The position numbers and the translations under genes were made by a program. Shown here piece after piece: positions 41,359 to 61,502 of a DNA stretch of 64,000 nt. Below the pieces are notes generated by a model, which saw only the letters and a list, made by a program, of their open reading frames with translations, was not told the DNA's origin and made no database searches. The stretch is taken from the NCBI RefSeq assembly GCF_004361815.1, contig NZ_SNWA01000002.1, positions 310,001 through 374,000 of the forward strand, read 5' to 3'. Each line of letters begins with the position of its first letter. Within the stretch, counting starts at the first letter, position 1. The stretch is from Paraburkholderia sp. BL10I2N1. GTDB taxonomy: Bacteria; Pseudomonadota; Gammaproteobacteria; Burkholderiales; Burkholderiaceae.

Positions 41359-42690
41359 ATGACCACAATCGACTTAAATTCAGGCGCAACAGCGGCCGTC
41401 TTTAACGAAGTCCATCTTGTCGATCTTCCCGTTACGGGAACAATCCCGCAAGATCTCAATGGTGTACTGGTACGCAATGGGCCCAATCCATTGCGCGGGC
41501 ATTTCAACGGACACGACGTGTTGGATTGGTGGCCGGAAGATGCGATGCTGCATGGCATCTCTCTGCAGGGCGACCGTGCAACGAGCTACAGAAATCGCTG
41601 GGCTCGCACAAAGAGATGGGCACACGTACACGACCCGGATGCCTCGCCGATGCTGCTTGATACGAATCCGAACGTGAATGTGCTTTACCACGCAGGCGAA
41701 ATTTTGGCATTGGCTGAAGGCGGTGTCCCGCTCGCCATAACAGCCGAGCTCGAGACACTCGGCGCGACACGTTCTCATCCGGGACTCGCAAACGGCATGA
41801 CCGCCCATCCGAAAGTTGACCCCCAGACGGGCGAACTGATGAGCTTTCGCGCGGATTGGAAAAAGCCGTATTTGCGCTATGCCGTGACGGACGCGAACGG
41901 CATGCCAAGCGTTGAGCTCGACATTGAGATGTCATCGCCCTCAATGATGCACGATATGGCAATCACCGCCACCCGAAGTATCTTTCTAGATCTTAATGTC
42001 GGTTATGACTTTTCGATGCTATCTCGTGGTCATCGGATGCCGCTACGTTGGCGCGACGACCATAAGGCAAAGTTGGGGATCATTCCGCGCCATGGCGGCG
42101 AGGTGCGCTGGTTTGAAATAGCGCCGTGCTTTATCCTGCACGTTGTGAACGCATACGACGCAGACGAGGCTACAGTGGTGCTCGACGCGATTCGATATCC
42201 CCGGTATTTGCGGCTGCATGAGGAGGGTTTGACTTTTGAAGACCCGCCGCTGGGAGTCTTGTGGCGCTATGTCATTGACCTCGGTAGAGGAATCGTGACT
42301 GAAAAGCAAATGACGGATGTTTGTATCGAGCTGCCTCGCATCAACGAAGGACGAACTGGCCGCCCCTATCGATTTCTCTACGCCGCTGAGCAACCTACAA
42401 ATACGGAAATTCGTGGCGTCGTTCGCTATGATTTCGAATCCGGTTCAATACAGCGATATAGGGTTCCGGAAGGGGACCAAAACAGTGAACCGGTGTTCGT
42501 AGCGCGTCCTCTGTCCTCGGCCGAAGACGATGGCTGGCTGCTCGTCTGTGTCTATCGTCACGCGACCGACACCAGCGATCTGGTCATTCTCGACGGCCAG
42601 AGTATAGAGGCCGCTCCGATCGCGACAGTACGACTGCCCAGGCGAATTCCCTCTGGATTTCACGGGGCATGGTTGTCAAAAGACTGCTAG
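41359..42690 (+). CDS. Carotenoid oxygenase (RPE65/CCD) family protein
   Basis: The 443-residue protein is a seven-bladed non-haem iron oxygenase that cleaves C=C bonds in carotenoids or stilbenes. The four iron-binding histidines are visible: H150 (NGMTAHPKVD), H198 (SMMHDMAIT), H261 (FILHVVNAYD) and H435 (GFHGAWL). The length fits bacterial lignostilbene/apocarotenoid dioxygenases. GMTAHPKVDPQTGEL is a family signature. It is cotranscribed with DUF2239. The substrate is unknown; no carotenoid synthesis gene is in the window, so an aromatic stilbene-like or imported apocarotenoid substrate is plausible. Codon use is noticeably less GC-biased than in the betaine island, suggesting acquisition. 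Confidence 0.88.
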   Translation: MTTIDLNSGATAAVFNEVHLVDLPVTGTIPQDLNGVLVRNGPNPLRGHFNGHDVLDWWPEDAMLHGISLQGDRATSYRNRWARTKRWAHVHDPDASPMLLDTNPNVNVLYHAGEILALAEGGVPLAITAELETLGATRSHPGLANGMTAHPKVDPQTGELMSFRADWKKPYLRYAVTDANGMPSVELDIEMSSPSMMHDMAITATRSIFLDLNVGYDFSMLSRGHRMPLRWRDDHKAKLGIIPRHGGEVRWFEIAPCFILHVVNAYDADEATVVLDAIRYPRYLRLHEEGLTFEDPPLGVLWRYVIDLGRGIVTEKQMTDVCIELPRINEGRTGRPYRFLYAAEQPTNTEIRGVVRYDFESGSIQRYRVPEGDQNSEPVFVARPLSSAEDDGWLLVCVYRHATDTSDLVILDGQSIEAAPIATVRLPRRIPSGFHGAWLSKDC

Positions 42691-46187: not shown

Positions 46188-46577
46188 ATGTTGAAGAAAA
46201 CAGATGTAAACGGGGTTGCGCCAGAGGCGCTGGAAGGAGCGCGTAGCGCGACTGGAAGCGCCTCTGGCGCCGCCGAAGTCAAGCGTTGGTCGACCGGTCG
46301 CAAACGCGGCGTGGTGCTTCGGTTGCTGCGTGGCGAACCCGTCGACGCCGTGTCCCGTGAAGTCGGTGTGACGATCGCCGTGCTCGAGCAATGGCGTGAG
46401 CTGGCACTGGCCGGCATGGAGGCCGGCCTGAAGGCACGCACCAGCGATCCCCTGGAAGCCCGGCTCAATGACGCCGTGCGGCGCGTCGGCGAGTTGTCTA
46501 TGGAAAACGAGATCCTGCGCAAGGAACGTGAACTGCAGGCCCGTCGCCCTTTGACCGCTCGGAGATCGTCGACATGA
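46188..46577 (+). CDS. IS3-family transposase OrfA
   Basis: The 129-residue protein starts at ATG 46188 with GGAG 8 nt upstream (a GTG at 46164 is in frame). It has a helix-turn-helix (KRGVVLRLLRGEPVDAVSREVGVTIAVLEQW) and a leucine-zipper helix (ARLNDAVRRVGELSMENEILRKE). It binds the element ends. Its TGA stop overlaps the orfB start as ATGA, so the two are translationally coupled; whether a -1 fusion is also made is unclear. Confidence 0.85.
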   Translation: MLKKTDVNGVAPEALEGARSATGSASGAAEVKRWSTGRKRGVVLRLLRGEPVDAVSREVGVTIAVLEQWRELALAGMEAGLKARTSDPLEARLNDAVRRVGELSMENEILRKERELQARRPLTARRSST

Positions 46578-47473
46578 GCCGCGCGATCTCCGTTAGTGCG
46601 AACAAGCCCTTTGGATTGCAACGGGTTTGCCAGGTGCTCGGATTCCCCCGCTCGACGATCTATGCTGTCCGCGCGAGGACAGCGGACAACGTGGTGCCGA
46701 TCATCCCGGGCCGCCGCGGCCCGAAACCGAAGATGCCCGATGCTGACCTGCTGAAGGCCATCCGCGACGATCTGGTGGCTTCCCCCTTCATCGGCGAGGG
46801 GCATCGCAAGGTCTGGGCGCGCTTGCGTATCCTGCACGACATCCGGGTCTCCCGGACCCGCGTGCTGCGACTGATGCGCGAGCACAGCCTGCTGTCGCCG
46901 CACCGGCAAGCGCGAGGCGAACCCAACCTTCACGATGGCCGGATCACAACCGATTGCCCGAATGAGATGTGGGGCACCGACGGCGTGCGCATCGCGACCG
47001 TGGACGACGGCATGGTGTGGATCTTCTCGGCCGTTGATCATTGCGACGGCATGTGTACCGGCATTCATGCCGCGAAGATTGGCGACCGCTTTGCTGCCCT
47101 CGAGCCGATCTCCCAGGGGCTGCTGGACGAATTCGGTTCCGTGCTCGCCGATGCGGGCCGCGGGCTGTCGCTGCGTATGGATCACGGTTCGCAGTACACG
47201 TCGGACGACTTCCGTAACCAGATCCGGTTCTGGGGCATCGCGCCGAGCTATGCCTTCGTCGCCGAACCCCAGACCAACGGCGTCGCCGAGCGATTCAACC
47301 GGACAATGAAGGAACAGGCTATTCATGGACGCATCTTCAAAAACCTGGAGGAAGTTCGTGCCGCCGCCATCGCGTTCAAGGATCGATACAATCGCGACTG
47401 GCGTCTTGAAAAGTTGGGCTTCAAATCACCCCTCGAAGCCCGTCAGGAACGGCTGATGAAGCTGGCCGCCTGA
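46574..47473 (+). CDS. IS3-family transposase OrfB
   Basis: The 299-residue integrase-type protein has an N-terminal HTH_21 region (IGEGHRKVWARLRI; VSRTRVLRLMREHSLLSPHR) and an rve catalytic core with Asp in WGTDGVRI, Asp in RMDHGSQYTSDDF and Glu in GVAERFNRTMKEQ, the DDE triad. The end (LGFKSPLEARQERLMKLAA) is complete. The gene is intact and the element may still move. Confidence 0.88.
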   Translation: MSRAISVSANKPFGLQRVCQVLGFPRSTIYAVRARTADNVVPIIPGRRGPKPKMPDADLLKAIRDDLVASPFIGEGHRKVWARLRILHDIRVSRTRVLRLMREHSLLSPHRQARGEPNLHDGRITTDCPNEMWGTDGVRIATVDDGMVWIFSAVDHCDGMCTGIHAAKIGDRFAALEPISQGLLDEFGSVLADAGRGLSLRMDHGSQYTSDDFRNQIRFWGIAPSYAFVAEPQTNGVAERFNRTMKEQAIHGRIFKNLEEVRAAAIAFKDRYNRDWRLEKLGFKSPLEARQERLMKLAA

Positions 47474-48122: not shown

Positions 48123-49247
48123 ATGAATGTGAGCGGGATGAAACGGATGCGCGGTGCCGATGGTTTTACGGAGTCGATGTTCACGGTGTTGAAGCTGGAT
48201 GATTTTGTGCCGAAAGACCATCCGTTGCGTCCGATTCGCACTTGGCTCAACGATGCGCTCAAACGCATGGACGACGTGTTTGCCCGGATGTACGAGGCTG
48301 ATGCGAAAGGTGGGCGGCCGAGCATTGCACCGGAGAAGCTGGTGCGAGCGTTACTGCTTCAGGTGCTGTACTCGATTCGCAGCGAGCGCATGTTGATGGA
48401 ACAGATTTCCTACAACATGCTCTTTCGCTGGTTCGTCGGCTTGCCGATGGATGGGACGGTGTGGGACCACTCGACATTCAGCAAGAACCGCGACCGACTG
48501 CTTGAGCACGATGTGCTGGTATTGCTCTTCAACGAGACGGTTGAGACTGCGCGCGAGCGTGGGCATCTGTCGGGTGAGCACTTTAGCGTTGACGGCACGC
48601 TGATTCAGGCATGGGCGGGACACAAGAGCTTTGTGCCGAAGGCAAGTCCGGACAAAGACGATACGCCGCCCGACGAACCGCGGGCGCCCAATGACAACTG
48701 GCACGGTCAGAAGCGCAGTAACGCGACGCATCAGTCCACGACCGACGAGCAGGCGCGCCTGTTTCGCAAGAGCAAAGGAACCGGTGCGATGCTTTGCTAC
48801 ATGGGCCATGTACTGACTGACAACCGGCACGGCCTGGTAGTCAACGCGCAGGTGACGCTGGCGACGGGCACCGCCGAGCGCGACTGCGCCGCGCAAATGC
48901 TTGCTGACGCCGCGAAGGTGGCCCCGGGCGGCATTACGGTCGGGGCAGACAAGAACTACGACACGGCCGGCTTTGTCGCCACCTGTCGAGCAAATCGCGT
49001 CACGCCTCATGTCGCGCAAAACGATGGGCGTCCAGGAGGCTCAGCGATTGACGAGCGAACCACGCGTTGGCCGGGTTACGCGGTCAGCCAGCAAAAACGT
49101 AAGCGGATTGAGCAGGTGTTCGGATGGGGCAAGACAGTCGGACGAATTCGACAGGCGATGTATCGAGGACTTGAACGCGTGGACCAGCTCTTCGTGCTGA
49201 CGCAGGTCGGCTACAACTTGACGCGTATGCGCACACTTGCCCGTTGA
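48123..49247 (+). CDS. IS5-family transposase
   Basis: The 374-residue protein has the DUF772-type N-terminal domain (DFVPKDHPLRPIRTWLNDAL; GRPSIAPEKLVRALLLQVLYSIRSERMLMEQ) and a DDE core with HFSVDGTLIQAW, VGADKNYDTAGF and the Glu in IEQVFGWGKTVG. The frame is intact. The left end probably lies near 48058 (AGGCTGTTGAAA). The right terminal repeat is not clear; a GCAGCCT at about 49291-49297 is a weak candidate, so the element may be truncated on that side. Confidence 0.85.
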   Translation: MNVSGMKRMRGADGFTESMFTVLKLDDFVPKDHPLRPIRTWLNDALKRMDDVFARMYEADAKGGRPSIAPEKLVRALLLQVLYSIRSERMLMEQISYNMLFRWFVGLPMDGTVWDHSTFSKNRDRLLEHDVLVLLFNETVETARERGHLSGEHFSVDGTLIQAWAGHKSFVPKASPDKDDTPPDEPRAPNDNWHGQKRSNATHQSTTDEQARLFRKSKGTGAMLCYMGHVLTDNRHGLVVNAQVTLATGTAERDCAAQMLADAAKVAPGGITVGADKNYDTAGFVATCRANRVTPHVAQNDGRPGGSAIDERTTRWPGYAVSQQKRKRIEQVFGWGKTVGRIRQAMYRGLERVDQLFVLTQVGYNLTRMRTLAR

Positions 49248-50166: not shown

Positions 50167-50856
50167 CTATATCAGCTGCATCACATCGTCGAGAGAAGCG
50201 CGGCTTGTTCTGAAACCATTGGCAGGATGATCGGCGTCGGCATAGCCAAATGCGATACCACAAACCATCTTCCGCTCGTCACCGATTCCGAAGTACGACC
50301 GAATAAACTTCGCGTGTCGGGCGAGCGCCCCCTGAGGCGTCGTCGCCACGCCGTGCGCCTGTGCTGCCCACATGAATGCGCCGATGAACGCGCCGCAATC
50401 GATGCCCGCGTACGCGCCAAGCTCGGCCGACATCGTGACTATCGCCACGTGCGGCGCGCCGAACATTCGGAAATTCTCGAAACTCTGCGCGGCCTGGCGT
50501 CCCTTCTCGCTTCGTTCGATTCCCAGCGCGCCGTACAACCTGTAAGCCACTTCGCGCCGGCGTTCCGCATATACACCGCAGTATTGTTCCGGAAACGGAA
50601 TGTCCGAATCCACTTCAGATGTCCCGCTCGCATGACTCACGAGGGCATCGCGGAACTTTGCAGTGGTATCCGGCGTTGTAACTACAAGGTGCCAGGGCTG
50701 AACGTTGCACCAGGACGCGCATCTTCCCGCCAAAGTCACGATGCTCTCGATGACTTCGCGCGGTACCGACGTGTCCTGATAAGCCCGGCACGTGAACCGC
50801 CCTGCCGACAGACGCTGCAGAACCTCCACGTCACGGTTAATAGATTGCGTAGTCAT
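50167..50856 (-). CDS. Nitroreductase family protein
   Basis: The 229-residue FMN-dependent oxidoreductase has the family's N-terminal RFTCRAYQDTSVPREVIESIVTLAGRCASWCNVQPWHLVV (FMN-phosphate contact R and the S/N-QPW motif) and the C-terminal GIAFGYADADHPAN. AGIDCGAFIGAFMWAAQAHGVAT lies in the dimer core. It reduces nitro groups or quinones with NAD(P)H. Its place at the end of the acyl-CoA cluster could reflect a role in reducing a pathway substrate, but this is weak. The start ATG has an AGGAG ribosome site. Confidence 0.85.
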   Translation of the reverse strand: MTTQSINRDVEVLQRLSAGRFTCRAYQDTSVPREVIESIVTLAGRCASWCNVQPWHLVVTTPDTTAKFRDALVSHASGTSEVDSDIPFPEQYCGVYAERRREVAYRLYGALGIERSEKGRQAAQSFENFRMFGAPHVAIVTMSAELGAYAGIDCGAFIGAFMWAAQAHGVATTPQGALARHAKFIRSYFGIGDERKMVCGIAFGYADADHPANGFRTSRASLDDVMQLI

Positions 50857-50928: not shown

Positions 50929-52866
50929 CTATCGCTTGGCGTCCTTGCGCACTGCTTCAAGCACTACATCGAGCGAAGCCGGATCTTCGAGCCCGGTCAA
51001 ATCGCCCTCGATTGCCCCGGTTTCCACTGCCTCGCGCAGCAATCGTCGCATGATCTTCCCTGCCCGTGTCTTCGGCAAAGCCGTCACGACATAGACAGAG
51101 CCAAGGCGCGCGAACGTTCCCACTGCCCGCTCCGCTGCGGCGGACACTGCGGCCAAAGCATCGCTGGAATCGACACCCTGCTTCAGGGTGACGAAGGCTA
51201 CGGGAAGCGTGCCTCGTAGGGCATCGTTCACCCCGACGACCGCCGCTTCGACGACACCTTCGCAGCTCGCTACGGCACTTTCAATCTCCATGGTGCTGAT
51301 CCGATGTGCGGCAACGTTGATGACGTCGTCCGCCCGCCCGAGCACCCAGATCTGGCCGTCGTTGTCCACCACGGCTTCGTCGGAGGTCGCATAGCTTCCC
51401 GGGAACCGCTTGAAATAGGACTCGACATAGCGCCCGGGGTCGTCCCAGATGGTTCGGGCCAGTGTGGGAAACGGTTCGGTGAGAACGAGATTGCCGCGCA
51501 CACCCGCGCCGACGGGTTTGCCGCCGTCATCCACAACTGCGAAGCAATGACCCGGAACCGGACGCCCGCAGCTTCCATGCTTGATCGGGTCGACCCCGTA
51601 GACGGGCATCGTCCAGGTCGAGCCCGTCTCGGTCTGTCCGTAAGCGTTCACGACGGGGACGTCCAGCGTGCGGCAGGTCCATTCCGCTGTTGCTGTGTCT
51701 AGCGTCTCCCCCTGGGTGGTTACGAGCCTGAGGTCAGGCGGAAGACTATCCCGTATCGCCGCCTCACCGGCTGCCCGCAGCATGCGCAAGCCGGTCGGTG
51801 CAACGAGGAGCTTCGTCACGCCATGCCGCTTCGCGATGTCGAGCATGCGCGTCTTGTCGGGAAAGTCGAGTGCCCCCTCGTAGCAGACGAGCGTCAATCC
51901 ATGTGCGAGGCCGCCAATGACAGCCTGAATCGGGAACGTCAGCCAGCCGACGTCCGCGGCGCACCAGTACACGTCGTCGGGCTGCGGGCCCACCTGCCAT
52001 TGAACGTTGGCCCAGGTGCCCACCAGAAAGCCGGCCACGCTGTGAACCACCCCCTTCGGCCTGCTCTCCGTGCCCGACGTGAAGATCAGAAAAGCGGGAT
52101 CGTTAGCCTCCATGGGCTCACATGGACAATGCGAATCCTGTCTTTCGAGAAGCCCGTTCCACTCGATTTCGTTCTGTTCCAATGAAAGCGGATCGCCGGT
52201 CCGGTTCACGACAACCGTATGCCTTACATGGACCGATGCGGCACGACCCGCACGCATGTTCTGCAGCAAGGGCACCTTCCGGCCGCGTCTGAGCGCCGCG
52301 TCGGCGGTGACGACGACCGCCGCGCGCGATGCCTGAAGGCGCAACGAAATCGCCTCGGACGAGAAACCACTGAAAAGCACGGTATAAATCGCGCCGATGC
52401 GGTTGCATGCATGAATCGCAACGAACGCCTCCGGTACGTTGGGCAGGTGAATCGCTACCACGTCACCCCGGCGCACGCCAAGTCCACGCAACGCACTAGC
52501 GAAACGCACGACTTGGTCGCGCAGGTCGAGATAGCTGAGGCGTCTGACCGCACCGTCCTCCCCTTCCCAGATCACGGCATCCCGCGTCGAGCTGACGGGA
52601 TCCTCGGCGTACCGGTCGACGCAGTTGTCCGCGACATTCAACGTACCGCCGACGTAGTAGCGCAGCGAGTCGAAGCCGCCCTTGCGGATCACATCCCACG
52701 ATCTGCTCCAGCGCATCCTGTCGGCGACCCATCCCCAGTACCTGTCCGACCCTTGTGATTCGATCGCGCGCGCCTCCGTGAGCAGCCTTTGTTGGCTCTC
52801 CACTCGCCATTCCGGACGAAGATCCGTCAGGGGTGTCGAGGTGAGTTCGGCAAGAATGTCGGTCAT
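50929..52866 (-). CDS. Acyl-CoA synthetase (acetyl/propionyl-CoA synthetase-like, AMP-forming)
   Basis: The 645-residue ANL-superfamily enzyme activates a carboxylic acid to its CoA ester with ATP. It has an ACAS N-domain (WGWVADRMRW; YYVGGTLNVADNCVDRY), the P-loop TSGTESRPKGVVHS, AYGQTETGSTWTMP, the hinge region YATSDEAVVDNDGQIWVLGRADDVINVAAHR, and the catalytic Lys in KTRAGKIMRRLLR. The ADDVINVAAHRIS motif and length resemble PrpE/AcsA-type enzymes. It may supply the starting acyl-CoA for the divergent carboxylase cluster. Confidence 0.86.
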   Translation of the reverse strand: MTDILAELTSTPLTDLRPEWRVESQQRLLTEARAIESQGSDRYWGWVADRMRWSRSWDVIRKGGFDSLRYYVGGTLNVADNCVDRYAEDPVSSTRDAVIWEGEDGAVRRLSYLDLRDQVVRFASALRGLGVRRGDVVAIHLPNVPEAFVAIHACNRIGAIYTVLFSGFSSEAISLRLQASRAAVVVTADAALRRGRKVPLLQNMRAGRAASVHVRHTVVVNRTGDPLSLEQNEIEWNGLLERQDSHCPCEPMEANDPAFLIFTSGTESRPKGVVHSVAGFLVGTWANVQWQVGPQPDDVYWCAADVGWLTFPIQAVIGGLAHGLTLVCYEGALDFPDKTRMLDIAKRHGVTKLLVAPTGLRMLRAAGEAAIRDSLPPDLRLVTTQGETLDTATAEWTCRTLDVPVVNAYGQTETGSTWTMPVYGVDPIKHGSCGRPVPGHCFAVVDDGGKPVGAGVRGNLVLTEPFPTLARTIWDDPGRYVESYFKRFPGSYATSDEAVVDNDGQIWVLGRADDVINVAAHRISTMEIESAVASCEGVVEAAVVGVNDALRGTLPVAFVTLKQGVDSSDALAAVSAAAERAVGTFARLGSVYVVTALPKTRAGKIMRRLLREAVETGAIEGDLTGLEDPASLDVVLEAVRKDAKR

Positions 52867-53001
52867 ATCGTCTCCAGAGCTTCTGTTCGGTATATGGTCA
52901 AACCCGATCCGGCGCGCTGCCCCGGATCGATCTGAATAGTGAGTTACAGGTACCTTCGCGCGGCGACGCGAGCAGATGCCGGACCCCGCTCGCGACAGGC
53001 A

Positions 53002-53358
53002 TCAGACCGATGATCGGCTCAAGTCCGAACGTCCGGTTGCCGGCGCAGCGCCTGCATGGCTGATCGCCTCTACAAGTCTCGCTCCCTCCTCGCGGGCAGG
53101 TTGCATCGAGTGTTGACGGACATGCCCGTATCCGCGGATTCGATCAGGAAGCTCCAGCAACTTAACGCATGCATCCAGGTTGGTGTCGCCGAGCTCGGCA
53201 ACGACGTGGTCGGCATACTGTTCGTACAAGTCTATCAACGCAAGCTCGTCGCGCCGCTCCGGCGTTCGCGAGAACGGGTCCAGCACCGTATTGCGCCAGC
53301 GACGCCACATGGATAGCGCCCGGAACACGTACAGCATCCCCGCACCGAACTCGCGCTT
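53002..53358 (-). pseudogene. C-terminal relic of indolepyruvate ferredoxin oxidoreductase
   Basis: About 118 residues match the extreme C-terminus of the large fused indolepyruvate ferredoxin oxidoreductase: KREFGAG start, then ERRDELALIDLYEQYADHVVAEL and LPDRIRGYGHVRQHSM. More than 1000 upstream residues are missing; similarity ends near 53375, 36 bp from the acyl-CoA dehydrogenase stop. A short out-of-frame peptide lies at the joint. This shows a deletion or insertion boundary inside the cluster. Confidence 0.72.
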
Positions 53359-53410
53359 TAGACTTCGCGAAGCGGAATGTCTAAAGGCCTCATAGGGATA
53401 GGAATTGCGT

Positions 53411-54589
53411 TTAGACCAGACGCTTTGCGATCTCTTCCAGCATCACTTCGGTGGCGCCGCCCCCAATGGACTGCACCCGCGCGTCCCGCGTCATGCGCTC
53501 GATGGCCGTCTCCCGGATGAACCCCATCCCGCCGTGGAACTGGAGGCAGTCGTACATCACCTCGTTCACGAGCGTCCCACACAATGCCTTGATCATGGAG
53601 ACCTCCTTGATCACCTCCTGCCCTTGGGAAACACGCCACGCGGTGTTGTAAAGAAACGTACGGGCAGCTTCTACCTGAGCGCTGCGCATTGCCAACCGGT
53701 GACGGATGACCTGCTTGTCCCATAGCGTTGCGCCGAATGCGCGACGCTGTGTGACCCATTCTAGTGCGAGTTCGATCGCCTTCGCGGCTTCTCCGATCGC
53801 TTGCGCGCCCAGCACGATGCGTTCGTTCTGAAGGTTTTTGACGAGCGCGTAGAACCCTTTGCTTTCCTCACCGAGCAGATTTTCCGACGGAATTCGACAG
53901 TTCTCAAATACAAGCTCCGCGGTGTCGCTCGAAAGCCAGCCGTGTTTCTTGAGCGGTCGCTCGACGCGAAACCCCGGCGCGCCCTTTTCGACGATAAACA
54001 TCGAGATATCACGGTTACGCCTCGATTCACCGGTCTTGGCCGCGACAAAGAATATGTCGCCGTACACGCCGTTGGTGATGAACATCTTGGAGCCGTTGAG
54101 CACCCACTCTTCGCCATCGCGCCGGGCAGTTGTCCGCATGCTCGCCAGGTCCGATCCTGCATCCGCCTCTGTCATCGCAACCGCCGCGATGCGCCGACCG
54201 GCAATGATGTCCGGCATATACCGGTCCTGCTGCGCCGCGTTGCCCGCGTGAAAGAGGTGCGGGCTCGCCATATCTGTGTGCACCAGAACCGTAATTGCAA
54301 AGCCCCCGTAGGTGGACCGACCCAGCTCCTCTGCGAGGATAGCGGTAGCCAGCGTGTCGAACTCGTTGCCTCCGTGCTTCTCGGCATACCGCATACCCAG
54401 CAGCCCCAGCGCCCCCATCTCCCGCAGAACATCGCGAGGCACAAACCCTTGCTCCTCCCATTCGTCGGCATACGGCTTTACCCGCTGGTCGACAAACCGG
54501 CGGACGGTTTCGCGAAGCATGTTGTGTTCATCAGTGAAGTACGGCATCGATGCCGTAACGGATAGCTGGAGGGGTTCAGAAGAGTTCAT
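53411..54589 (-). CDS. Acyl-CoA dehydrogenase
   Basis: The 392-residue FAD enzyme (start ATG 54589) has the ACAD fold: AMTEADAGSDLASMRTTA (FAD contacts), WVLNGSKMFITNGVYGDIF, and the C-terminal FHGGMGFIRETAIERMTRDARVQSIGGGATEVM. The MCAD catalytic-Glu position (YEG in that family) is GGG here, so the base must be elsewhere, as in isovaleryl- or citronellyl-CoA dehydrogenases. With a methyl-acyl racemase and a biotin carboxylase next door, a methyl-branched acyl-CoA is the likely substrate. Confidence 0.9.
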   Translation of the reverse strand: MNSSEPLQLSVTASMPYFTDEHNMLRETVRRFVDQRVKPYADEWEEQGFVPRDVLREMGALGLLGMRYAEKHGGNEFDTLATAILAEELGRSTYGGFAITVLVHTDMASPHLFHAGNAAQQDRYMPDIIAGRRIAAVAMTEADAGSDLASMRTTARRDGEEWVLNGSKMFITNGVYGDIFFVAAKTGESRRNRDISMFIVEKGAPGFRVERPLKKHGWLSSDTAELVFENCRIPSENLLGEESKGFYALVKNLQNERIVLGAQAIGEAAKAIELALEWVTQRRAFGATLWDKQVIRHRLAMRSAQVEAARTFLYNTAWRVSQGQEVIKEVSMIKALCGTLVNEVMYDCLQFHGGMGFIRETAIERMTRDARVQSIGGGATEVMLEEIAKRLV

Positions 54590-54615
54590 GGCGATTCGCT
54601 CAATTAGAATTGTTC

Positions 54616-54631
54616 CGTAACAGTCGTTATG
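54616..54631. promoter_or_regulatory. Inverted repeat CGTAAC-N4-GTTATG before the acyl-CoA dehydrogenase
   Basis: The 16-bp site has CGTAAC at 54616-54621 and GTTATG at 54626-54631, about 27 bp upstream of the dehydrogenase start. It matches the layout of the site at 54807-54822 and may be a TetR operator. Confidence 0.55.
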
Positions 54632-54806
54632 TTCATTAAAGTTCAGTGATCTCTCCGTGTCGAGGTGGGAGAAACCCCTAGAGCATCTAAATACGTCACA
54701 TACATCCTTTAAAACCGCTACATGTTTGGCACCTTCGCCTGGCCCTGTGAGTTCTGGATGATCCGGCCGCGTGTCGTCCAACAACGTGCCAAATCCTCTT
54801 GCCGAC

Positions 54807-54822
54807 CATAACCCTCGTTATG
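54807..54822. promoter_or_regulatory. Inverted repeat CATAAC-N4-GTTATG before the racemase gene
   Basis: Perfect 6-4-6 palindrome (CATAAC 54807-54812, GTTATG 54817-54822) about 40 bp upstream of the racemase start. It differs from the 54616 site by one base in the arms. Together they flank the 272-bp divergent promoter and are likely bound by the TetR protein encoded at 55871. Confidence 0.58.
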
Positions 54823-54861
54823 TACTATTGGCGCAATCGGATATTTAAAGAATTGCAGCAT

Positions 54862-55866
54862 ATGAACAATGCCCTTCCTCTAGACGGTGTGAGTGTCGTC
54901 GAACTGGCAGCGATCGGACCCGTCCCTTTTACCGGCCGCATGCTGCACCAACTGGGCGCTGAAGTCACGGTGGTCTGCGCCCCACGACATCGCGATCTCG
55001 GCATACCTATGTCGGACGATCCGCTGGAGAGTGGCAAACATCGGGTCGTCATTGACCTCAAGACAGCGGCTGGGCGAGACGCCTTGGGAACACTTGTTCG
55101 TGAAAGTGACGTGTTGATCGAGGGCTTCCGGCCCGGTACACTCGAAAGGCTGGAATTGGCGCCGGCCTATCTGCATTCCGTGCAGCCCGCACTGGTTATT
55201 GGACGCTGCGCCGGTTGGGCTGCCACCGGTGCGCGAGCATCTTCTGCGGGACACGACATCAACTTTCTTGCGCTTGCTGGCATTCTGGGCGCGATCGGAC
55301 CGAAAGAATGCCCTTCCCCCCCAATCAATCTGCTAGGCGACTTCGGCGGCGGAGGTATGCATCTCGCGCTGGGCGTTGTTGCCGCCCTGTTGCAAGCGAA
55401 ACGCGACGGCAAGGGAGCCGTCGTGCAGACGAGCATCTTCGGCGCGAGTGTCTCGCTCACCGCGCATCTTCACGGGATGTTGGATTCGGGGCTCTGGATC
55501 GATGACAGACAATCGAATCTGCTCGATGGCGGGGCCCCCTTCTATCGCTGCTACAGGACATCCGACGATCACTGGCTCGCGATCGGTGCAATTGAGCCTA
55601 AATTCTTTGCTGAGCTAGTGAGCGAGCTCGACGTCGAAGTCGACGCCGCGCGCCAGTATGACCGTTCATACTGGCCAACGTTGACACAGATACTGTCACA
55701 ACGGATCGCGGCCCGCACGCGGGACGAATGGGATACGGTGTTTGCACAAGGCGATGCGTGCGCCACGCCAGTCCTGACATGGAAGGAGGCACGCTCGCAT
55801 CGGGATGGCGCCGTGGCGTTTGAGCACAACGCCCCCAAGCCCGCCATAACGTTCCACAGGGAGTAG
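54862..55866 (+). CDS. Alpha-methylacyl-CoA racemase family (CaiB/BaiF) protein
   Basis: The 334-residue protein starts at ATG 54862 (an upstream in-frame start at 54799 is unlikely). It carries the racemase catalytic residues: His131 in AGHDINFLALAG and Asp161 in NLLGDFGGGGM, with the same 30-residue spacing as H126/D156 of the Mycobacterium enzyme. The LDGGAPFYRCYRTSDDHWLAIGAIEPKFF segment is also typical of that group rather than of formyl-CoA transferases. It would interconvert 2R- and 2S-methylacyl-CoA. It is first in a co-directional cluster, 4 bp before the TetR gene. Confidence 0.85.
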   Translation: MNNALPLDGVSVVELAAIGPVPFTGRMLHQLGAEVTVVCAPRHRDLGIPMSDDPLESGKHRVVIDLKTAAGRDALGTLVRESDVLIEGFRPGTLERLELAPAYLHSVQPALVIGRCAGWAATGARASSAGHDINFLALAGILGAIGPKECPSPPINLLGDFGGGGMHLALGVVAALLQAKRDGKGAVVQTSIFGASVSLTAHLHGMLDSGLWIDDRQSNLLDGGAPFYRCYRTSDDHWLAIGAIEPKFFAELVSELDVEVDAARQYDRSYWPTLTQILSQRIAARTRDEWDTVFAQGDACATPVLTWKEARSHRDGAVAFEHNAPKPAITFHRE

Positions 55867-55870
55867 CAGA

Positions 55871-56527
55871 ATGGCAAAAAAACAGGCTTCCCAGACCAGA
55901 ACAACGGCAAGAGCATCCGTCAGCGCTGACGATATCGCACCAGCGGAAGGACGGCAGCTGATTCTGGATACTGCAGCACGACTCTTCCGGCACGAAGGGT
56001 ACGCGAGCACCTCGCTACGCGACATTGCCGCGGAGTGCGGCGTAACAACCGGTAGCATTTACCATCACTTTGGATCAAAGGAAGAAATTGTCACCGAAGT
56101 GCTGCGCATTGGCGTGGTGCGTGTGGCCGAAGAAGTGCGGCGTGCTGTCATGTCACTCAATCCCGCAAGCGACGCCCGAACCATCCTGCACGCGGCCGTG
56201 TTCGCGCACCTGCACGGCATGCTCGAACTGCAGGACTACACGTCCGCCAACGTGCGCATCTTCGGACAGGTACCGCCTTCGATCCGCGAAAAACATATCG
56301 TTGTTCGGGATGCCTATGAGACGTTCTGGCACAAGTTGTTACAACGATGTGCGTCGCAGGGCACCTTTAACCCGGCTCGCGACCTCCGTCTGACGCGCCT
56401 GTTTCTCATCAACGCACTGAACGGCTCGCTCGAATGGTACAGACCTGAAATCGCTTCCATCCAAAAACTGACACACGAATTGACCGAGCTATTTCTCGAT
56501 GGACTCGAGGCAAGATCCAGGCGCTGA
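55871..56527 (+). CDS. TetR/AcrR-family regulator of the acyl-CoA cluster
   Basis: The 218-residue regulator has an N-terminal disordered, basic lead followed by the TetR DNA-binding domain (LILDTAARLFRHEGYASTSLRDIAAECGVTTGSIYHHFGSKEEIV). The ligand domain ends in LINALNGSLEWYRPE, as in regulators of acyl-CoA pathways. It lies inside the racemase-carboxylase operon, 4 bp after the racemase. The candidate operator is the repeated CRTAAC-N4-GTTATG site in the divergent promoter; an acyl-CoA intermediate is the likely inducer. Confidence 0.88.
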   Translation: MAKKQASQTRTTARASVSADDIAPAEGRQLILDTAARLFRHEGYASTSLRDIAAECGVTTGSIYHHFGSKEEIVTEVLRIGVVRVAEEVRRAVMSLNPASDARTILHAAVFAHLHGMLELQDYTSANVRIFGQVPPSIREKHIVVRDAYETFWHKLLQRCASQGTFNPARDLRLTRLFLINALNGSLEWYRPEIASIQKLTHELTELFLDGLEARSRR

Positions 56528-56578
56528 GACTTATCGGAACATCACTCTCCCCATTGTCATCCGGACATCTAAACGCAT

Positions 56579-58171
56579 ATGAAGTCTCGCATCGATATCC
56601 ATTCCGATACGTACAAGCAGAATGCAGCGGGGTACGGGAAACTGCTCGATCAGTTGCATGAGCGTCAGAGATGGGCACTCGCAGGTGGCGGCGAAAAGCT
56701 CAGTGCGCGGCACATTGAACGCGGCAAGATTCCCGTTCGCGATCGCATCGATCTCCTTCTGGACCCGGGCAGCCCCTTTCTCGAGCTTTCGGCCCTTGCC
56801 GCCTGGGGGCTGCACCACAACGACGTGCAGTCCGCCGGCATCGTCACGGGCGTCGGCTCGATCAACGGCGTGACATGCATGATAGTTGCCAATGACGCGA
56901 CAGTAAAAGGCGGCAGCTTCTTCCCCGAGACCACGCGCAAACATATCCGTGCGCAGGAGATCGCCTGGGAAAACCGCCTGCCGTGCATCTACCTGGTGGA
57001 TTGCGGCGGCGCGTATCTGCCCGAGCAGGATCGCGTGTTTCCGGACTACGGCCACTTCGGCACGACATTCTTCCACCAGTGCCGCATGAGCGCGGACGGT
57101 CTACCACAGCTCTCGGCGGTCTTTGGTGGCTGCACCGCTGGAGGCGCATATATTCCAGCGCTGTCGGACGAATCGGTCATGGTCGATGGAACGGGCCGGA
57201 TTCATCTCGGTGGCCCCCCCATCGTCAAGGCGGCAATCGGCGAGATAGTCGACGGAGAGACCCTGGGCGGTGCCAGCATGCACGCACGGGTCTCCGGCGT
57301 GACCGACTATCTGGCGATGTCGGAGCGGGAAGCGCTCCAGCGTCTGCGAGACATCGTCTCCAATCTGAACTGGCCGGTGCGCGCACACGCGACCCGACTA
57401 CCCGTCGTGCCCCCGCGCTTCGCTGCGGAGGAAATCGGCGGCATCATCGGCACGGACCTCAAACGGCCTTACGACGTTCGTGAAGTCATCATGCGCATGG
57501 TCGACGATAGCGCGCTACAGGAGTTCAAGCCCGAATACGGCGCCACCCTGGTATGTGCTACCGCACACATTCACGGGTACCCGGTCGGTGTCCTGGCCAA
57601 CAACGGTGTGCTGTTTTCGGAGTCTTCCGTCAAGGGTGCGCATTTCATCGAACTCTGCAGCCAGCGACGCATTCCATTGCTCTTCCTGCAGAACATCCCG
57701 GGTTTCATGGTAGGAACCGAGGCGGAGCGCGGTGGCATTGCCAGGCACTCAGCCAAACTGGTCTACGCGATGGCGACTGCTCGCGTGCCGCGCATCACCG
57801 TACTGATCGGCGGCAGCTACGGAGCTGGCAACTATGGCATGTGCGGCCGCGGATTCGCCCCCCGGTTCCTGTTCGCCTGGCCCAACAGCCGCGTCTGCAC
57901 GATGAGCCCCGAAGTGGCGACCACCGTGCTGACCGAACTTCGGCTCGCCTCGCTCAAGGGTGACGCCAGCGAGGAGGAACTCGCGGAACTCAGCGAACGG
58001 ACGCGACGACAGTTCGAAATGCAGAGCGATCCGTACTACGCGACAGCACGATTGTGGGACGACGGCATCATCGAACCGTCCCAGACGCGTGACGTCCTCG
58101 GCATCTGCCTCCAGCTTGCCGACGCAAGTACGCCCCGCTTCGACGGCCCCAGTCCTGTCTACCGGATGTGA
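56579..58171 (+). CDS. Biotin-dependent acyl-CoA carboxylase, carboxyltransferase (beta) subunit
   Basis: The 530-residue protein is of the methylcrotonyl/geranyl-CoA carboxylase beta type. N-domain motifs are VRDRIDLLLDPGSPFLELS, VKGGSFFPETTRKHIRAQEIA, DCGGAYLPEQDRVFPD and GGCTAGGAYIPALSDE. The C-domain has FLQNIPGFMVGTEAERGGIARH, GGSYGAGNYGMCGRGFAPRF and FAWPNSRVCTMSPE. It transfers carboxyl from carboxybiotin to an acyl-CoA, probably a 3-methyl-branched enoyl-CoA. Residues that separate methylcrotonyl from geranyl specificity could not be judged. The alpha gene starts 4 bp downstream. Confidence 0.9.
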   Translation: MKSRIDIHSDTYKQNAAGYGKLLDQLHERQRWALAGGGEKLSARHIERGKIPVRDRIDLLLDPGSPFLELSALAAWGLHHNDVQSAGIVTGVGSINGVTCMIVANDATVKGGSFFPETTRKHIRAQEIAWENRLPCIYLVDCGGAYLPEQDRVFPDYGHFGTTFFHQCRMSADGLPQLSAVFGGCTAGGAYIPALSDESVMVDGTGRIHLGGPPIVKAAIGEIVDGETLGGASMHARVSGVTDYLAMSEREALQRLRDIVSNLNWPVRAHATRLPVVPPRFAAEEIGGIIGTDLKRPYDVREVIMRMVDDSALQEFKPEYGATLVCATAHIHGYPVGVLANNGVLFSESSVKGAHFIELCSQRRIPLLFLQNIPGFMVGTEAERGGIARHSAKLVYAMATARVPRITVLIGGSYGAGNYGMCGRGFAPRFLFAWPNSRVCTMSPEVATTVLTELRLASLKGDASEEELAELSERTRRQFEMQSDPYYATARLWDDGIIEPSQTRDVLGICLQLADASTPRFDGPSPVYRM

Positions 58172-58175
58172 TTCC

Positions 58176-60173
58176 ATGTTCACCCGACTTTTGATCGCCA
58201 ATCGTGGCGAAATTGCCTGCCGTGTCGCGCGCACCTGCAGACGCCTTGGTATCGAGGTCGTTGCGGTTTATTCCGATGCCGACGCCTGTGCCCGACATGT
58301 GCGCGAGGCGGATATCGCGGTACGGATCGGTGCGCCACCCGCGCGCGACTCGTATCTGAATGTCGAAGCAATCATGAAGGCAGCAGTCGAACACGGTGCG
58401 CAGGCCATCCACCCCGGCTACGGCTTCCTCTCGGAAAAGCTCGAACTGATCGATGCCTGTGCCCAGGCCGGGATCGTCTTCGTCGGCCCCCATCGCAATG
58501 CCATCGCGAGCATGGGCTCGAAGATCGAAAGCAAGCGCATTGCGCGCGGCGCGGGCGTATCCTGTGTGCCGGGCTACGACGGCGATGATCAGAGCGACGC
58601 GCGTCTGTTCGACGAAGGGCATCGCATCGGTTTCCCCCTGCTCATCAAGGCGAGCGCCGGCGGCGGCGGCAAGGGCATGAAGCGGGTCGACGACGCCCCG
58701 GCGCTCGCTCGCCAGATCGAGGCGGCGCGCCGCGAAGCACTCGCCGCGTTCGGCGACGACAAGGTGCTGATGGAACGGTATATTCAGCGGCCGCGCCACC
58801 TCGAGGTTCAGTTGCTTGGCGATAGGCATGGGGGACTCGTGCATCTGTTCGAGCGCGAATGCTCGATCCAGCGAAACTACCAGAAGATCATCGAGGAGGC
58901 GCCGGCCAACCACCTGCCGGACGCGGTGCGCGAAACGCTGTACGGCGCCGCCACTGCACTGGGTCGAAGCATCGGCTACGACTCCACCGGCACTGTCGAA
59001 TTCGTGCTCGACGCTGACGACGAAGACCGCCCGTATTTCCTCGAGATGAACACCCGACTGCAGGTCGAGCATCCCGTCACGGAATTGACCACCGGCCTCG
59101 ATCTCGTCGAACAGCAGATCCGCAGCGCGCTGGGAGAACCGCTGACTTTCCGGCAGCAGGATATCAAGCGTCATGGCTGGGCCATCGAAGCGCGAATCAA
59201 TGCAGAAATTCCCGAGGAGGGATTCGCCGCTTCCTTTGGCCGCGTCCATGGCTACCATGAGCCGGTCATCGAAGGTCTGCGGATCGACAGCGGCATCGAC
59301 GAACGTAGCGAAATCACGCCGCACTACGACTCGATGCTCGCGAAGGCGATCGCATTCGGCGGCACGCGCGAAGTAGCACGACGCCGCCTGCTCGAAGGCG
59401 TGCGGTCGCTGCGTATCGAAGGCGTGCACACCAGTCAGCGCATGCTCGACGAAATTCTCTTGCACCCGTCGTTCGCCGGCGTATTGACGACGCGATTCCT
59501 GCTGGACGCTTTCCCGCAAGGTTGGCAGCCGCAGCCGGACGTCCCGGAGGAACAACGAAGTGCCGCGGCCGCCTCATGGGTCGCAGGCCGGATGCAGCCC
59601 AGGTCGGACCTTCCGCTTGATCGCCTGGTGGGTTTCAGGCTTGGCAGCGATGCGAACAGTAAAAGACTTGCGCGCTATACGGTGCGAGTTGGCCCGTCCG
59701 CCAGCGAGCTGCAAACCATCGCCGTCGAATGCGTCGACGCCGCCAACCTGGCATGCCACCTCGACGGCGCGAGCCGTACATTCGTATGCTGCGCCGACGG
59801 CAGTGTCATCGCTGCTTCTGGCAGACGCTACCAGCCGAGCAGGACGGACGCGAAAGAACTCGGGCTGTGGTGCGAAGGCGGATATTCCGCCTGGACCGTC
59901 GTACCCGACGTCGCGACCCTCGCCGACGAAGGCGCCGCTTCCAACGGCGGCCGCACGGTCACTGCCGACATGCCGGGCGTGCTGTCCGAGCTTCTCGTAA
60001 AGCAGGGTGACAGGGTGGCAGCGGGCACACCCGTGGCCGTGATCGAAGCGATGAAGTTGTTCCATACGCTAGAGGCACCCAGCGAAGGTATTGTCGAAAC
60101 ACTGCCTCTCGCATCGGGCGCGACGGTCAACAAGGGAACGATTCTCGTCACCTTAACCCCCCTTTCAGAGTAA
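58176..60173 (+). CDS. Biotin-dependent acyl-CoA carboxylase, biotin carboxylase/carrier (alpha) subunit
   Basis: The 665-residue protein (ATG 58176; a longer frame from 57960 shadows the beta gene) has a biotin carboxylase domain (LLIANRGEIACRVART; KASAGGGGKGMK; ECSIQRNYQKIIEEAPA; EMNTRLQVEHPVTE) and a C-terminal biotinyl domain. The biotinylation site reads EAMKLF instead of the usual EAMKM, as occurs in some MCC/GCC-type alphas. The middle BT linker is diverged. It forms the holoenzyme with the subunit encoded just upstream. Confidence 0.91.
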   Translation: MFTRLLIANRGEIACRVARTCRRLGIEVVAVYSDADACARHVREADIAVRIGAPPARDSYLNVEAIMKAAVEHGAQAIHPGYGFLSEKLELIDACAQAGIVFVGPHRNAIASMGSKIESKRIARGAGVSCVPGYDGDDQSDARLFDEGHRIGFPLLIKASAGGGGKGMKRVDDAPALARQIEAARREALAAFGDDKVLMERYIQRPRHLEVQLLGDRHGGLVHLFERECSIQRNYQKIIEEAPANHLPDAVRETLYGAATALGRSIGYDSTGTVEFVLDADDEDRPYFLEMNTRLQVEHPVTELTTGLDLVEQQIRSALGEPLTFRQQDIKRHGWAIEARINAEIPEEGFAASFGRVHGYHEPVIEGLRIDSGIDERSEITPHYDSMLAKAIAFGGTREVARRRLLEGVRSLRIEGVHTSQRMLDEILLHPSFAGVLTTRFLLDAFPQGWQPQPDVPEEQRSAAAASWVAGRMQPRSDLPLDRLVGFRLGSDANSKRLARYTVRVGPSASELQTIAVECVDAANLACHLDGASRTFVCCADGSVIAASGRRYQPSRTDAKELGLWCEGGYSAWTVVPDVATLADEGAASNGGRTVTADMPGVLSELLVKQGDRVAAGTPVAVIEAMKLFHTLEAPSEGIVETLPLASGATVNKGTILVTLTPLSE

Positions 60174-60183
60174 GGAGGCAATG

Positions 60184-60648
60184 ATGGCTGGTCTGTACTT
60201 CGAAGAGCTAACCCAGGACAGGGAATTCGAGCACCCGTGGTCGCGCACGGTGACGGAGATGGACAACGTCCTCTTCTCCACCCTCACACTGAATGTCCAG
60301 CCGCTACATCTGGACGAGCATTTCTGCCAGAAAACCGAATGGGGACAACGAATCGTCAACAGCCTCTTCACCTTGGGTTTGATGATCGGCATGACCGTCA
60401 ACGACACGACGCTCGGCACGACGATCGCCAACCTCGGCATGAGCGACGTGACCTTTCCGAAGCCCGTCTTTCACGGCGACACCATCCGGGTCCACACTCG
60501 CGTCGTCAGCCGACGCGAGAGCAAATCTCGCCCCGAGGCCGGGATTGTGGAATTTCGGCATACAGCGATCAATCAGCGCAACGAAGTGGTCGCGACATGC
60601 ACGCGCCAGGCTTTCATGCGCAAACGCCCCGCGCAGGTAAGCGCATGA
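60184..60648 (+). CDS. MaoC-like acyl-CoA hydratase
   Basis: The 154-residue hot-dog fold protein has the hydratase motif NVQPLHLDEHFCQKTEWGQRIVNSLFTLGLMIGM, with the catalytic Asp/His pair (in L-D-E-H form) shared by mesaconyl-CoA and R-specific enoyl-CoA hydratases. Two ATGs stand in a row; the second (60184) is better spaced from AAGGAGG. In this operon it most likely hydrates the carboxylated enoyl-CoA, a step done by a crotonase in the liu/atu pathways. Its stop overlaps the next start (ATGA), so it is coupled to the lyase. Confidence 0.87.
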   Translation: MAGLYFEELTQDREFEHPWSRTVTEMDNVLFSTLTLNVQPLHLDEHFCQKTEWGQRIVNSLFTLGLMIGMTVNDTTLGTTIANLGMSDVTFPKPVFHGDTIRVHTRVVSRRESKSRPEAGIVEFRHTAINQRNEVVATCTRQAFMRKRPAQVSA

Positions 60649-61502
60649 AACGAACCTGGCTTTTTGTGCCTGCCGACGACGAAGCGAAGGTCGCGAAGGC
60701 GCTCGCGAGCAGCGCGGATGCGGTGATCCTCGATCTGGAGGACGGTGTGGGCCGGGCGCCCGGGCGCAAAGCAGGCGCCCGCACCATTCTGACGCGTGTC
60801 CTCGAACGGAACGATATCGATCGCACGCGCTGCTACGTCCGCCTCAATGCGCTCGCATCCCACGAAATCGGGCTGGATATTCCGGTCGCCGTGGCGGGAG
60901 GAGCAACGGGCGTCGTGCTGCCGAAATGCGAAGGGCCAGCGGACGTTATGCGACTGGCGGAGTTGCTGTCGGAGGCCGAGCAACGCTGCAATCGTGGCAA
61001 TCCGGCCTCGATCGTCGCCATTGCAACCGAAACCGCCAGAGGAGTCCAGCTACTGCCGACTTTTCTGCACGCACTGCCACGCCTCGAAGCGCTGATGTGG
61101 GGCGCGGAAGACCTGTGCAGCGATCTCGGAGGATTCTCGAACCGGGGGCTCGACGGCAGCTACCTGGGTCCGTATGCCACCGCCCGCGATAGCTGCCTCG
61201 TGGCGGCCCGCGCCGCCGGCGCACTGGCCATCGACGCCGTTTACACGGCCTTCCGGGACATCGACGGACTCAGACGTGAGAGCGAAATGCATCGCAGTCT
61301 TGGGTTCGATGCAAAGGCGGCGATCCACCCGGCACAACTCGACACGATCAAGCAGTCGTTTCGGCCCACGCCCGCCCAGATCGACTGGGCTCTACGACTC
61401 ATGGAATTTTTCGCGGAAGGCGACGGTGCCAGGGCGCTCGATGGAGCGATGATCGACGAGCCTCACGTCAGGCTCGCGCGGAAGATTCTCGAAAGCCGCT
61501 AA
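60645..61502 (+). CDS. CitE-like CoA-ester lyase (HpcH/HpaI aldolase family)
   Basis: The 285-residue TIM-barrel enzyme has the family's RTWLFVPADDEAKVAKA start, AVILDLEDGVG (metal-binding Asp/Glu), RLNALASHEIGLDI, VVLPKCEGP, AIATETARGV and ALMWGAEDLCSDLGG. Such enzymes cleave malyl-CoA, citramalyl-CoA or similar 3-hydroxyacyl-CoA esters to acetyl-CoA plus an oxo-acid. It overlaps the hydratase gene. It probably cleaves the 3-hydroxy-3-methylglutaryl-like product, replacing an HMG-CoA lyase. Confidence 0.89.
   Translation: MKRTWLFVPADDEAKVAKALASSADAVILDLEDGVGRAPGRKAGARTILTRVLERNDIDRTRCYVRLNALASHEIGLDIPVAVAGGATGVVLPKCEGPADVMRLAELLSEAEQRCNRGNPASIVAIATETARGVQLLPTFLHALPRLEALMWGAEDLCSDLGGFSNRGLDGSYLGPYATARDSCLVAARAAGALAIDAVYTAFRDIDGLRRESEMHRSLGFDAKAAIHPAQLDTIKQSFRPTPAQIDWALRLMEFFAEGDGARALDGAMIDEPHVRLARKILESR

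Follow-up and report, generated by a model that had tools for sequence, protein, structure and literature searches.

A predicted accessory gamma-carboxylation cluster in Paraburkholderia sp. BL10I2N1 with a distinct carboxylase clade, a MaoC-type hydratase and a CitE-type lyase

The 64,000-nucleotide window analyzed here (G000:C2:310001-374000 of the four-contig, 9.2-Mb genome of Paraburkholderia sp. BL10I2N1) contains, at window positions 50929-61502, a gene cluster encoding a biotin-dependent gamma-carboxylase, a MaoC-type hydratase and a CitE-type lyase (Table 1). The new element is the carboxylase clade, which is separate from both LiuB and the actinobacterial proteins. We consider it somewhat probable from the sequence evidence that this is an accessory second cluster that breaks a 3-methyl-branched acid down to acetyl-CoA and acetoacetate via (R)-3-hydroxy-3-methylglutaryl-CoA (HMG-CoA), with isovalerate or 3-methylcrotonate as the likely substrate. 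In the proposed route, the ligase would activate the free acid, most likely isovalerate or 3-methylcrotonate, and the dehydrogenase, with its isovaleryl-type Glu, would make the 2,3-enoyl-CoA. Next, the carboxylase would attach CO2 at the gamma methyl position, giving a glutaconyl-CoA that MaoC would hydrate in the R configuration. Retro-Claisen cleavage of the hydrated product would fall to CitE, at a predicted Mg-binding E129/D156 site. The chemistry of these steps rests on family knowledge and their order is inferred, while gene content, gene order, motifs, the carboxylase clade and recurrence in other genomes are sequence based. The liu-like step logic proposed in an earlier reading of the same DNA (the original prediction) is probably right, as the enzyme families and residues present support it.

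Among solved relatives, the carboxylase beta subunit scored highest against 3-methylcrotonyl-CoA carboxylase (MCC; 622 bits), followed by AccD1 (617 bits) and the geranyl enzyme (440 bits). MCC and geranyl-CoA carboxylase are distinguished by Phe191 versus Gly162 plus a three-residue insertion, according to PMC4673880. The window protein has Phe160 at the equivalent of MCC Phe191 and lacks the three-residue deletion; the two Phe residues were equated in an alignment from which the geranyl-enzyme sequence itself is absent, and in L134, a geranyl-like homologue from a Ferrovibrio genome, the gap is present and the Phe absent. A geranyl-type carboxylase was therefore ruled out, and with Phe160 retained, a substrate as large as geranyl is less likely.

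The window beta subunit and eight others formed one clade (support 100/100, stem 0.81) in a first tree, apart from the LiuB proteins of the genus (100/100) and from the actinobacterial proteins (91/92), the latter including no sequence named AccD1. This tree contained 40 rows from 45 matches, with one row per locus and rows below 40% identity excluded. A second tree of 48 rows added nine database proteins and five carboxyltransferases from three plasmids, with 14 near-duplicate or additional loci left out by name. Three of the five plasmid proteins joined the clade, and the wider clade was again supported at 100/100. Long-branch warnings concerned L134 and the other carboxylase of locus L163, both outside the clade.

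Eleven positions (113, 114, 142, 160, 163, 166, 168, 209, 382, 396 and 426) provide a signature, reading SFCF(T, S, rarely others)xCHAYF in the clade versus TYSFINAFYTY in most LiuB and actinobacterial rows. Exceptions are L105 and L087 outside the clade and, inside it, L165, which has T for C at position 168. The window protein departs from the LiuB pattern at 10 of the 11 positions. The Pseudomonas MCC and AccD1 alignments show the LiuB pattern around these positions; in the alignment with AccD1 (4q0g), six of them read T, Y, S, I, N and A versus S, F, C, T, H and C in the window. Of the 974 proteins matching at E 1e-200 or better, the best 120 all carry S113, F114, C142, F160, C168, H209, Y396 and F426, and 119 carry A382, while position 166 is variable. 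The closest carboxylase among the matches listed (94% identity) is named Paraburkholderia sp. Overall, 15 of the 24 positions separating 10 clade rows from 29 other rows lie at residues 103-249, around the selectivity Phe, where they may line the acyl pocket. As the clade is separate and the residues near the selectivity Phe differ, 3-methylcrotonyl-CoA as the substrate is an assumption, and the exact acyl group could be another one. The branch has apparently not been studied before.

The hydratase and the lyase had been assigned to families other than crotonase and HMG-CoA lyase, and matches to PF01575 (MaoC) and PF03328, respectively, bear this out. The best solved relative of the CitE protein is 6aq4 (E 4.1e-40). 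This structure is Rv2498c, an (R)-HMG-CoA and (S)-citramalyl-CoA lyase required for growth on leucine and itaconate, for which PMC6689899 names eight residues contacting Mg or the carboxylate, hydroxyl and methyl groups. All eight are kept in the alignment with the window CitE (R66, E129, M151, G153, A154, E155, D156 and V199). The methyl-contact residues are M151 and V199, and five of the other carboxylase-linked CitE proteins vary at M151. In a CitE tree of 46 rows, carboxylase-linked proteins were intermixed with unlinked ones. Because of this mixing, MaoC-CitE looks like a module attached to varied upstream steps; the pair also accompanies LiuB-type and actinobacterial carboxylases, making three carboxylase clades in all. 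The window MaoC is 86% identical to that of a Hydrogenophaga metagenome-assembled genome. It has Asn at the putative catalytic position, as do all but one of the MaoC rows, actinobacterial ones included; (R)-hydratases usually carry a catalytic Asp there.

The acyl-CoA dehydrogenase had been predicted to lack the Glu of the medium-chain acyl-CoA dehydrogenase (MCAD) type. This was confirmed, with Gly377 at the MCAD position, but Glu256 occupies the isovaleryl-CoA dehydrogenase position. In the same alignment, the genome's own LiuA has Glu in the isovaleryl column and Ala in the MCAD column, and six other dehydrogenases of the genome (L022-L024 and L026-L028) all have the MCAD-type Glu. Despite Glu256, the closest solved relatives of the window protein are other dehydrogenases. 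Relatives encoded near the same carboxylase are 71% identical in G142 and G026 (L073 and L074) and 57% identical in G345. The ligase scored 610 bits against the NCBIfam acetate--CoA ligase model, under its cut-off of 657. Its motif GQTETG carries Gly410, a position held by Trp in acetyl-CoA synthetases. Three of four relatives inspected also have Gly there; the fourth is a fragment whose frame, as read, lacks the motif. As Gly410 replaces the acetyl-CoA synthetase Trp, the ligase likely accepts an acyl group larger than acetate.

Leucine-type genes also occur elsewhere in this genome. A separate liu operon at about C2:3149756-3155460 (L007) encodes LiuA, LiuB, LiuC and LiuD, of which LiuA and LiuD were verified by Pfam and LiuC was named from sequence and position. 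A canonical HMG-CoA lyase lies at C1:1683683-1684504 (497 bits versus a cut-off of 246), and a second, weaker member of that family (272 bits) at C2:10779-11603. The window cluster is therefore additional, and the possibility that it is the sole leucine-type pathway of the genome was ruled out. The same genes, together with the position of the beta subunit outside the LiuB clade, support the proposal that the carboxylase is other than an ordinary LiuBD. The genome's liuB reads in two frames, changing at or near a run of five T at about L007:9019 (G000:C2 ~3152016), which is either an assembly error or a real loss. A real loss would leave the window carboxylase as the sole intact candidate for 3-methylcrotonyl-CoA in this genome, and an assembly error would mean two routes side by side. 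No internal stop was reported in the LiuB rows listed for the genus, of which those of G101 and G118 are partial matches. The genome also holds a second MaoC (68%)-CitE (42%)-dehydrogenase set at L029:10287-13067 (G000:C2 ~1462-1465 kb), and no carboxylase was found beside it in the 19 kb read.

A carboxylase 71% identical to that of the window was found in 5 of 144 genomes of the genus, the window's genome included, and the other four also retain LiuB at 54-55%. Wider searches returned one clade member beyond the window in the phylum (G345; 398 genomes, E 1e-200), none in the order (399 genomes, E 1e-200) and one in the family (G981; 398 genomes, E 1e-202). The remaining matches (G257, G756 and G771) have the LiuB motif and are located with LiuA and LiuC homologues. 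These carboxylase-led samples were evenly drawn and may overlap, and their strict thresholds could miss weaker members.

MaoC and CitE genes adjoin the clade carboxylase in 10 of the 14 loci inspected (the window's own, G110, G127, G026, G142, L055, L058, L059, L060 and G345), which come from alphaproteobacteria and the window's own class; in G345 another gene sits between the two. Since L055, L058, L059 and L060 were found via CitE, the count is biased, and it becomes 5 of 9 once these four and the window are dropped. The four genus genomes were found first via MaoC and again via the carboxylase. A Hydrogenophaga locus (L053) with the alpha subunit, MaoC and CitE, whose contig ends before the beta subunit, was excluded. 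An initial tally of 10 out of 10, four of them CitE-found, had suggested that the clade is always tied to MaoC-CitE; this was refuted by L163, L164, L165 and G981, all found in later searches that started from the carboxylase. Three loci, on plasmids of Polaromonas JS666, Sulfitobacter BSw21498 and Phaeobacter G2 (3 viewed of 15 listed, among 432 plasmid records with a match), have a crotonase in place of MaoC. In G981 (L167), the clade alpha/beta pair (68%) stands without MaoC or CitE, and neither these nor other matched pathway genes were seen in the two regions read (L167 and L168). Because of these loci, the hydratase and lyase are not fixed partners of the clade. On the Sulfitobacter plasmid, genes for a B12-dependent acyl-CoA mutase, MeaB and a thioesterase (L164:13119-19590) lie shortly before the sister carboxylase; a mutase of the pivalyl-CoA to isovaleryl-CoA type would fit a 3-methylcrotonyl route.

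The original prediction had proposed searching for the same gene set elsewhere. Carboxylase, MaoC and CitE do recur together, with acyl-CoA ligases nearby in the loci read further out, but the racemase homologue was not detected in the central cluster regions of the genus relatives. The sets of G142, G026, G110 and G127 include a hydrolase, an enoyl-CoA hydratase, two thiolase-family proteins, a small protein without a family match, a second ligase, a branched-chain-type ABC transporter and a two-part CoA-transferase. The dehydrogenase and the TetR protein are present in three of these four, and the first ligase of G110 is a 187-residue piece. The alphaproteobacterial loci have transporter and ligase genes upstream of the carboxylase set, and in G145, G146 and G148 TetR-like and dehydrogenase-like genes follow, named from their first residues only. 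The ligases and transporter of the relatives suggest import of the substrate as a free acid from the surroundings, whereas leucine enters via the bkd complex. The CoA-transferase and thiolases would fit the needs of a free 3-oxo acid released by CitE. In the Bradyrhizobium genome G145 (L060; L131/L154), a second gamma-carboxylase of a different kind is encoded about 21 kb away from the MaoC-CitE-linked one, accompanied by a small, separate protein resembling a biotin carrier and by transporter-like and ligase-like genes of its own.

Several observations weigh against breakdown of isovalerate or 3-methylcrotonate via (R)-HMG-CoA. The carboxylase belongs to neither the LiuB nor the actinobacterial clade and has changed residues near the selectivity Phe, and the dehydrogenase shares just 32% identity with the LiuA of the genome. 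The clusters of the genus relatives hold more genes than isovalerate requires, and no dehydrogenase or TetR gene was found near the clade carboxylase of G110. CitE proteins of this group also occur without a carboxylase nearby, three clade loci have the crotonase, and G981 has neither partner. Finally, the racemase homologue has no place in the scheme.

A rival substrate would be a larger beta-branched (isoprenoid or terpenoid) acid, on whose 3-alkyl-2-enoyl-CoA the carboxylase would act; MaoC and CitE would yield acetyl-CoA and a longer 3-oxo acid, and the racemase would handle a later 2-methyl branch. We regard this as rather unlikely. It would account for the distinct clade with its changed residues and for the liv-type uptake, second ligase, two thiolase-family proteins, enoyl-CoA hydratase and CoA-transferase of the genus relatives. 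It is also consistent with the three plasmid sister carboxylases lying near another carboxyltransferase, on two plasmids with a 2,4-dienoyl-CoA reductase, with the second gamma-carboxylase of the Bradyrhizobium genome, and with racemase homologues in the window and behind an Aquibium CitE. However, Phe160 is kept without a deletion, which by the published rule does not give a geranyl-size pocket, and the CitE methyl contacts M151 and V199 are kept, even if M151 varies in five carboxylase-linked CitE proteins. Furthermore, the ligase is of the short-chain acetyl-CoA synthetase type, and the window cluster itself is without a transporter, thiolases or CoA-transferase. As a broader and tentative possibility, the clade might be a third kind of gamma-carboxylase beside the 3-methylcrotonyl and geranyl enzymes, with its own short branched 3-alkyl-2-enoyl-CoA. 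Together with MaoC-CitE it would then form an R-route for branched plant or isoprenoid acids, spread in Proteobacteria and hidden under the name methylcrotonoyl-CoA carboxylase, to which the racemase would admit 2-methyl acids.

A pathway for itaconate or 2-methylsuccinate is improbable. Here the racemase and dehydrogenase would convert 2-methylsuccinyl-CoA to itaconyl- or mesaconyl-CoA, MaoC would form citramalyl-CoA, CitE would release pyruvate and acetyl-CoA, and the carboxylase would be a neighbor with another job. Such a role is suggested by Azospirillum L063 and a Frigidibacter plasmid (L092), which combine CoA-transferase-type genes, a dehydrogenase, a racemase-like CaiB, MaoC and CitE with no carboxylase, and in L092 also a TRAP transporter; the mycobacterial CitE cleaves (S)-citramalyl-CoA too (PMC6689899). 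However, the window MaoC reached only 132.2 bits against the RipB/Ich model (cut-off 340) and the CitE protein 167.4 bits against RipC/Ccl (cut-off 375). Gaps of 4, 7 and -4 bases connect the carboxylase genes with maoC and citE, and carboxylase, MaoC and CitE follow one another in this order in 10 of the 14 loci inspected. In addition, the cluster lacks a gene for a family I or II CoA-transferase, and the dehydrogenase has the isovaleryl-type Glu. A redundant second MCC, whose product LiuC and LiuE would handle in trans while MaoC and CitE are incidental, is very doubtful: the genome does encode LiuA, LiuC, LiuD and a canonical HMG-CoA lyase, and sister carboxylases lie beside crotonases or, in G981, with neither partner, but carboxylase, MaoC and CitE stay together in 10 of 14 clade loci across alphaproteobacteria and the window's class, and MaoC-CitE also occurs with LiuB-type and actinobacterial carboxylases.

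The racemase-type protein expected in the cluster is supported by its closeness to solved racemases (E 4.5e-78) and by a putative catalytic pair, H131 and D160, which we take to be that of alpha-methylacyl-CoA racemases. The His was predicted correctly, whereas the Asp had been placed at D161. The alternative that this CaiB-family gene is nearest to CoA-transferases was ruled out, as the best of these matched only at E 1.3e-22. The gene directly precedes the TetR gene in the window, and in Aquibium a 44% homologue lies about 0.8 kb behind the CitE gene of the same set. The protein may feed in 2-methyl-branched acids, or its gene may have been inserted recently. The TetR protein is probably a repressor of the cluster; homologues (46-47%) stand beside the dehydrogenase in L073 and L074, and a similar protein occurs in L145. 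No inverted repeats that could serve as a TetR operator were found when the stretch between the dehydrogenase and racemase genes was searched for them. The 9-mer TCGTTATGT occurs twice in this divergent region (54624-54632 and 54815-54823) and is a possible regulator site.

Every gene family named in the original prediction was found in its place within the cluster, in full-length open frames with family matches far beyond chance expectation. The gene set thus stands, but the single operon does not, as two divergent units were found. The ligase and dehydrogenase genes form the minus-strand unit, and the other six genes (54862-61502) form the plus-strand unit, with intergenic gaps of 4, 51, 4, 7 and -4 bases in gene order. 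The indolepyruvate ferredoxin oxidoreductase remnant aligns to positions 1085-1183 of the 1196-position PRK13029 model and has two homologues elsewhere in the genome (open frames of 1250 and 1232 amino acids [aa], 34-39% identity); it is probably outside the pathway.

Table 1. Genes of the cluster at window positions 50929-61502
Feature	Position	Strand	Basis
Acyl-CoA ligase, acetyl-CoA synthetase type, 645 aa	50929-52866	-	Pfam PF00501/PF13193/PF16177
Indolepyruvate ferredoxin oxidoreductase remnant, C-terminal 111 aa	53002-53337	-	PF20169, NCBIfam PRK13029
Acyl-CoA dehydrogenase	53411-54589	-	Family match; Glu256, Gly377
Alpha-methylacyl-CoA racemase homologue, family III CoA-transferase fold	54862-55866	+	Solved relatives; H131, D160
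TetR-family regulator	55871-56527	+	PF00440, PF17932
Gamma-carboxylase beta subunit (carboxyltransferase), distinct clade	56579-58171	+	Trees, signature, Phe160
Gamma-carboxylase alpha subunit, biotin carboxylase and biotin carrier, motif EAMKL	58176-60173	+	Family and motif
MaoC-type hydratase, 155 aa	60181-60648	+	PF01575
CitE-type lyase, 285 aa	60645-61502	+	PF03328; Rv2498c residues kept

A nitroreductase gene (50167-50856) adjoins the ligase gene, and nitroreductase-family genes also occur near the MaoC-CitE clusters of Azospirillum L063 (48%) and Frigidibacter L092. Transposase genes adjoin the cluster at 46574-47473 and 48123-49247; another copy of the former, identical in its first 60 residues, lies near G000:C1:1680000 (L170). 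An RPE65-family oxygenase of the carotenoid/stilbene type (41359-42690) is encoded about 8 kb before the cluster, beyond both transposase genes.

In the literature found, the MaoC-CitE finish of a gamma-carboxylation pathway has been worked out solely for mycobacteria, and the same pair is now seen with three different carboxylase clades. One of these clades, labelled as ordinary methylcrotonoyl-CoA carboxylase in databases, is separated by a simple signature, which offers a direct way to test substrate range and to ask why two parallel routes are retained in some bacteria. A literature search covering titles and the beginnings of abstracts, with few subscription papers, returned no description of the gene set in Proteobacteria and no clue to its carbon source.

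The leucine/isovalerate pathway of Pseudomonas (liuRABCDE) shares with the window the order dehydrogenation, gamma-carboxylation, hydration and cleavage. In contrast, the window has MaoC for crotonase and CitE for HMG-CoA lyase, its carboxylase beta subunit is 54-59% identical to LiuB, and its predicted intermediate is (R)-HMG-CoA rather than the S form. The geranyl-CoA carboxylase (atu) pathway has the same gamma-carboxylation logic, but the window protein keeps Phe160 without the three-residue deletion and stands apart from L134, and no crotonase is in the cluster. Likewise, itaconate dissimilation (Ict/Ich/Ccl, RipABC) shares the MaoC-CitE pair, whereas the window proteins score well under the curated cut-offs, a carboxylase is attached and no matching CoA-transferase is present. 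Plasmid pAlCFBP5477 of Agrobacterium larrymoorei encodes a dehydrogenase (annotated as isovaleryl-CoA dehydrogenase), carboxylase beta and alpha subunits, MaoC and CitE in a row; its members are LiuA-, LiuB- and LiuD-like, unlike those of the window.

The closest parallel to the whole set is the mycobacterial leucine operon. The order beta, alpha, dehydrogenase, MaoC, CitE was seen in 3 of 11 actinobacterial loci (L112, L113 and L108, the last with about 1.1 kb of intervening sequence ahead of MaoC), and neither MaoC nor CitE was seen in the other 8; the 11 loci (L105-L115) were taken from the best matches in 60 genomes searched. We take the mycobacterial hydratase Rv2499c to be of the MaoC type. 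In mycobacteria, accD1, accA1, fadE19, the Rv2499c gene and citE are under the TetR repressor bkaR, according to PMC3920632, and AccD1-AccA1 is an MCC that M. smegmatis requires for growth on isovalerate, according to PMC4347857. The enzyme combination, thought possibly undescribed, has thus been published (PMC3920632, PMC4347857 and PMC6689899). Carboxylase beta and alpha subunits, dehydrogenase, hydratase, CitE and TetR are all present in the window, and the eight named CitE active-site residues are identical. However, the window beta subunit belongs to a clade other than the AccD1 kind, and its dehydrogenase has the isovaleryl-type Glu where that of actinobacterial L113 has the MCAD-type Glu. 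The window dehydrogenase gene is also divergent instead of lying between those of the alpha subunit and the hydratase, a racemase homologue is present, and the cluster has its own ligase where mycobacteria use the bkd complex.

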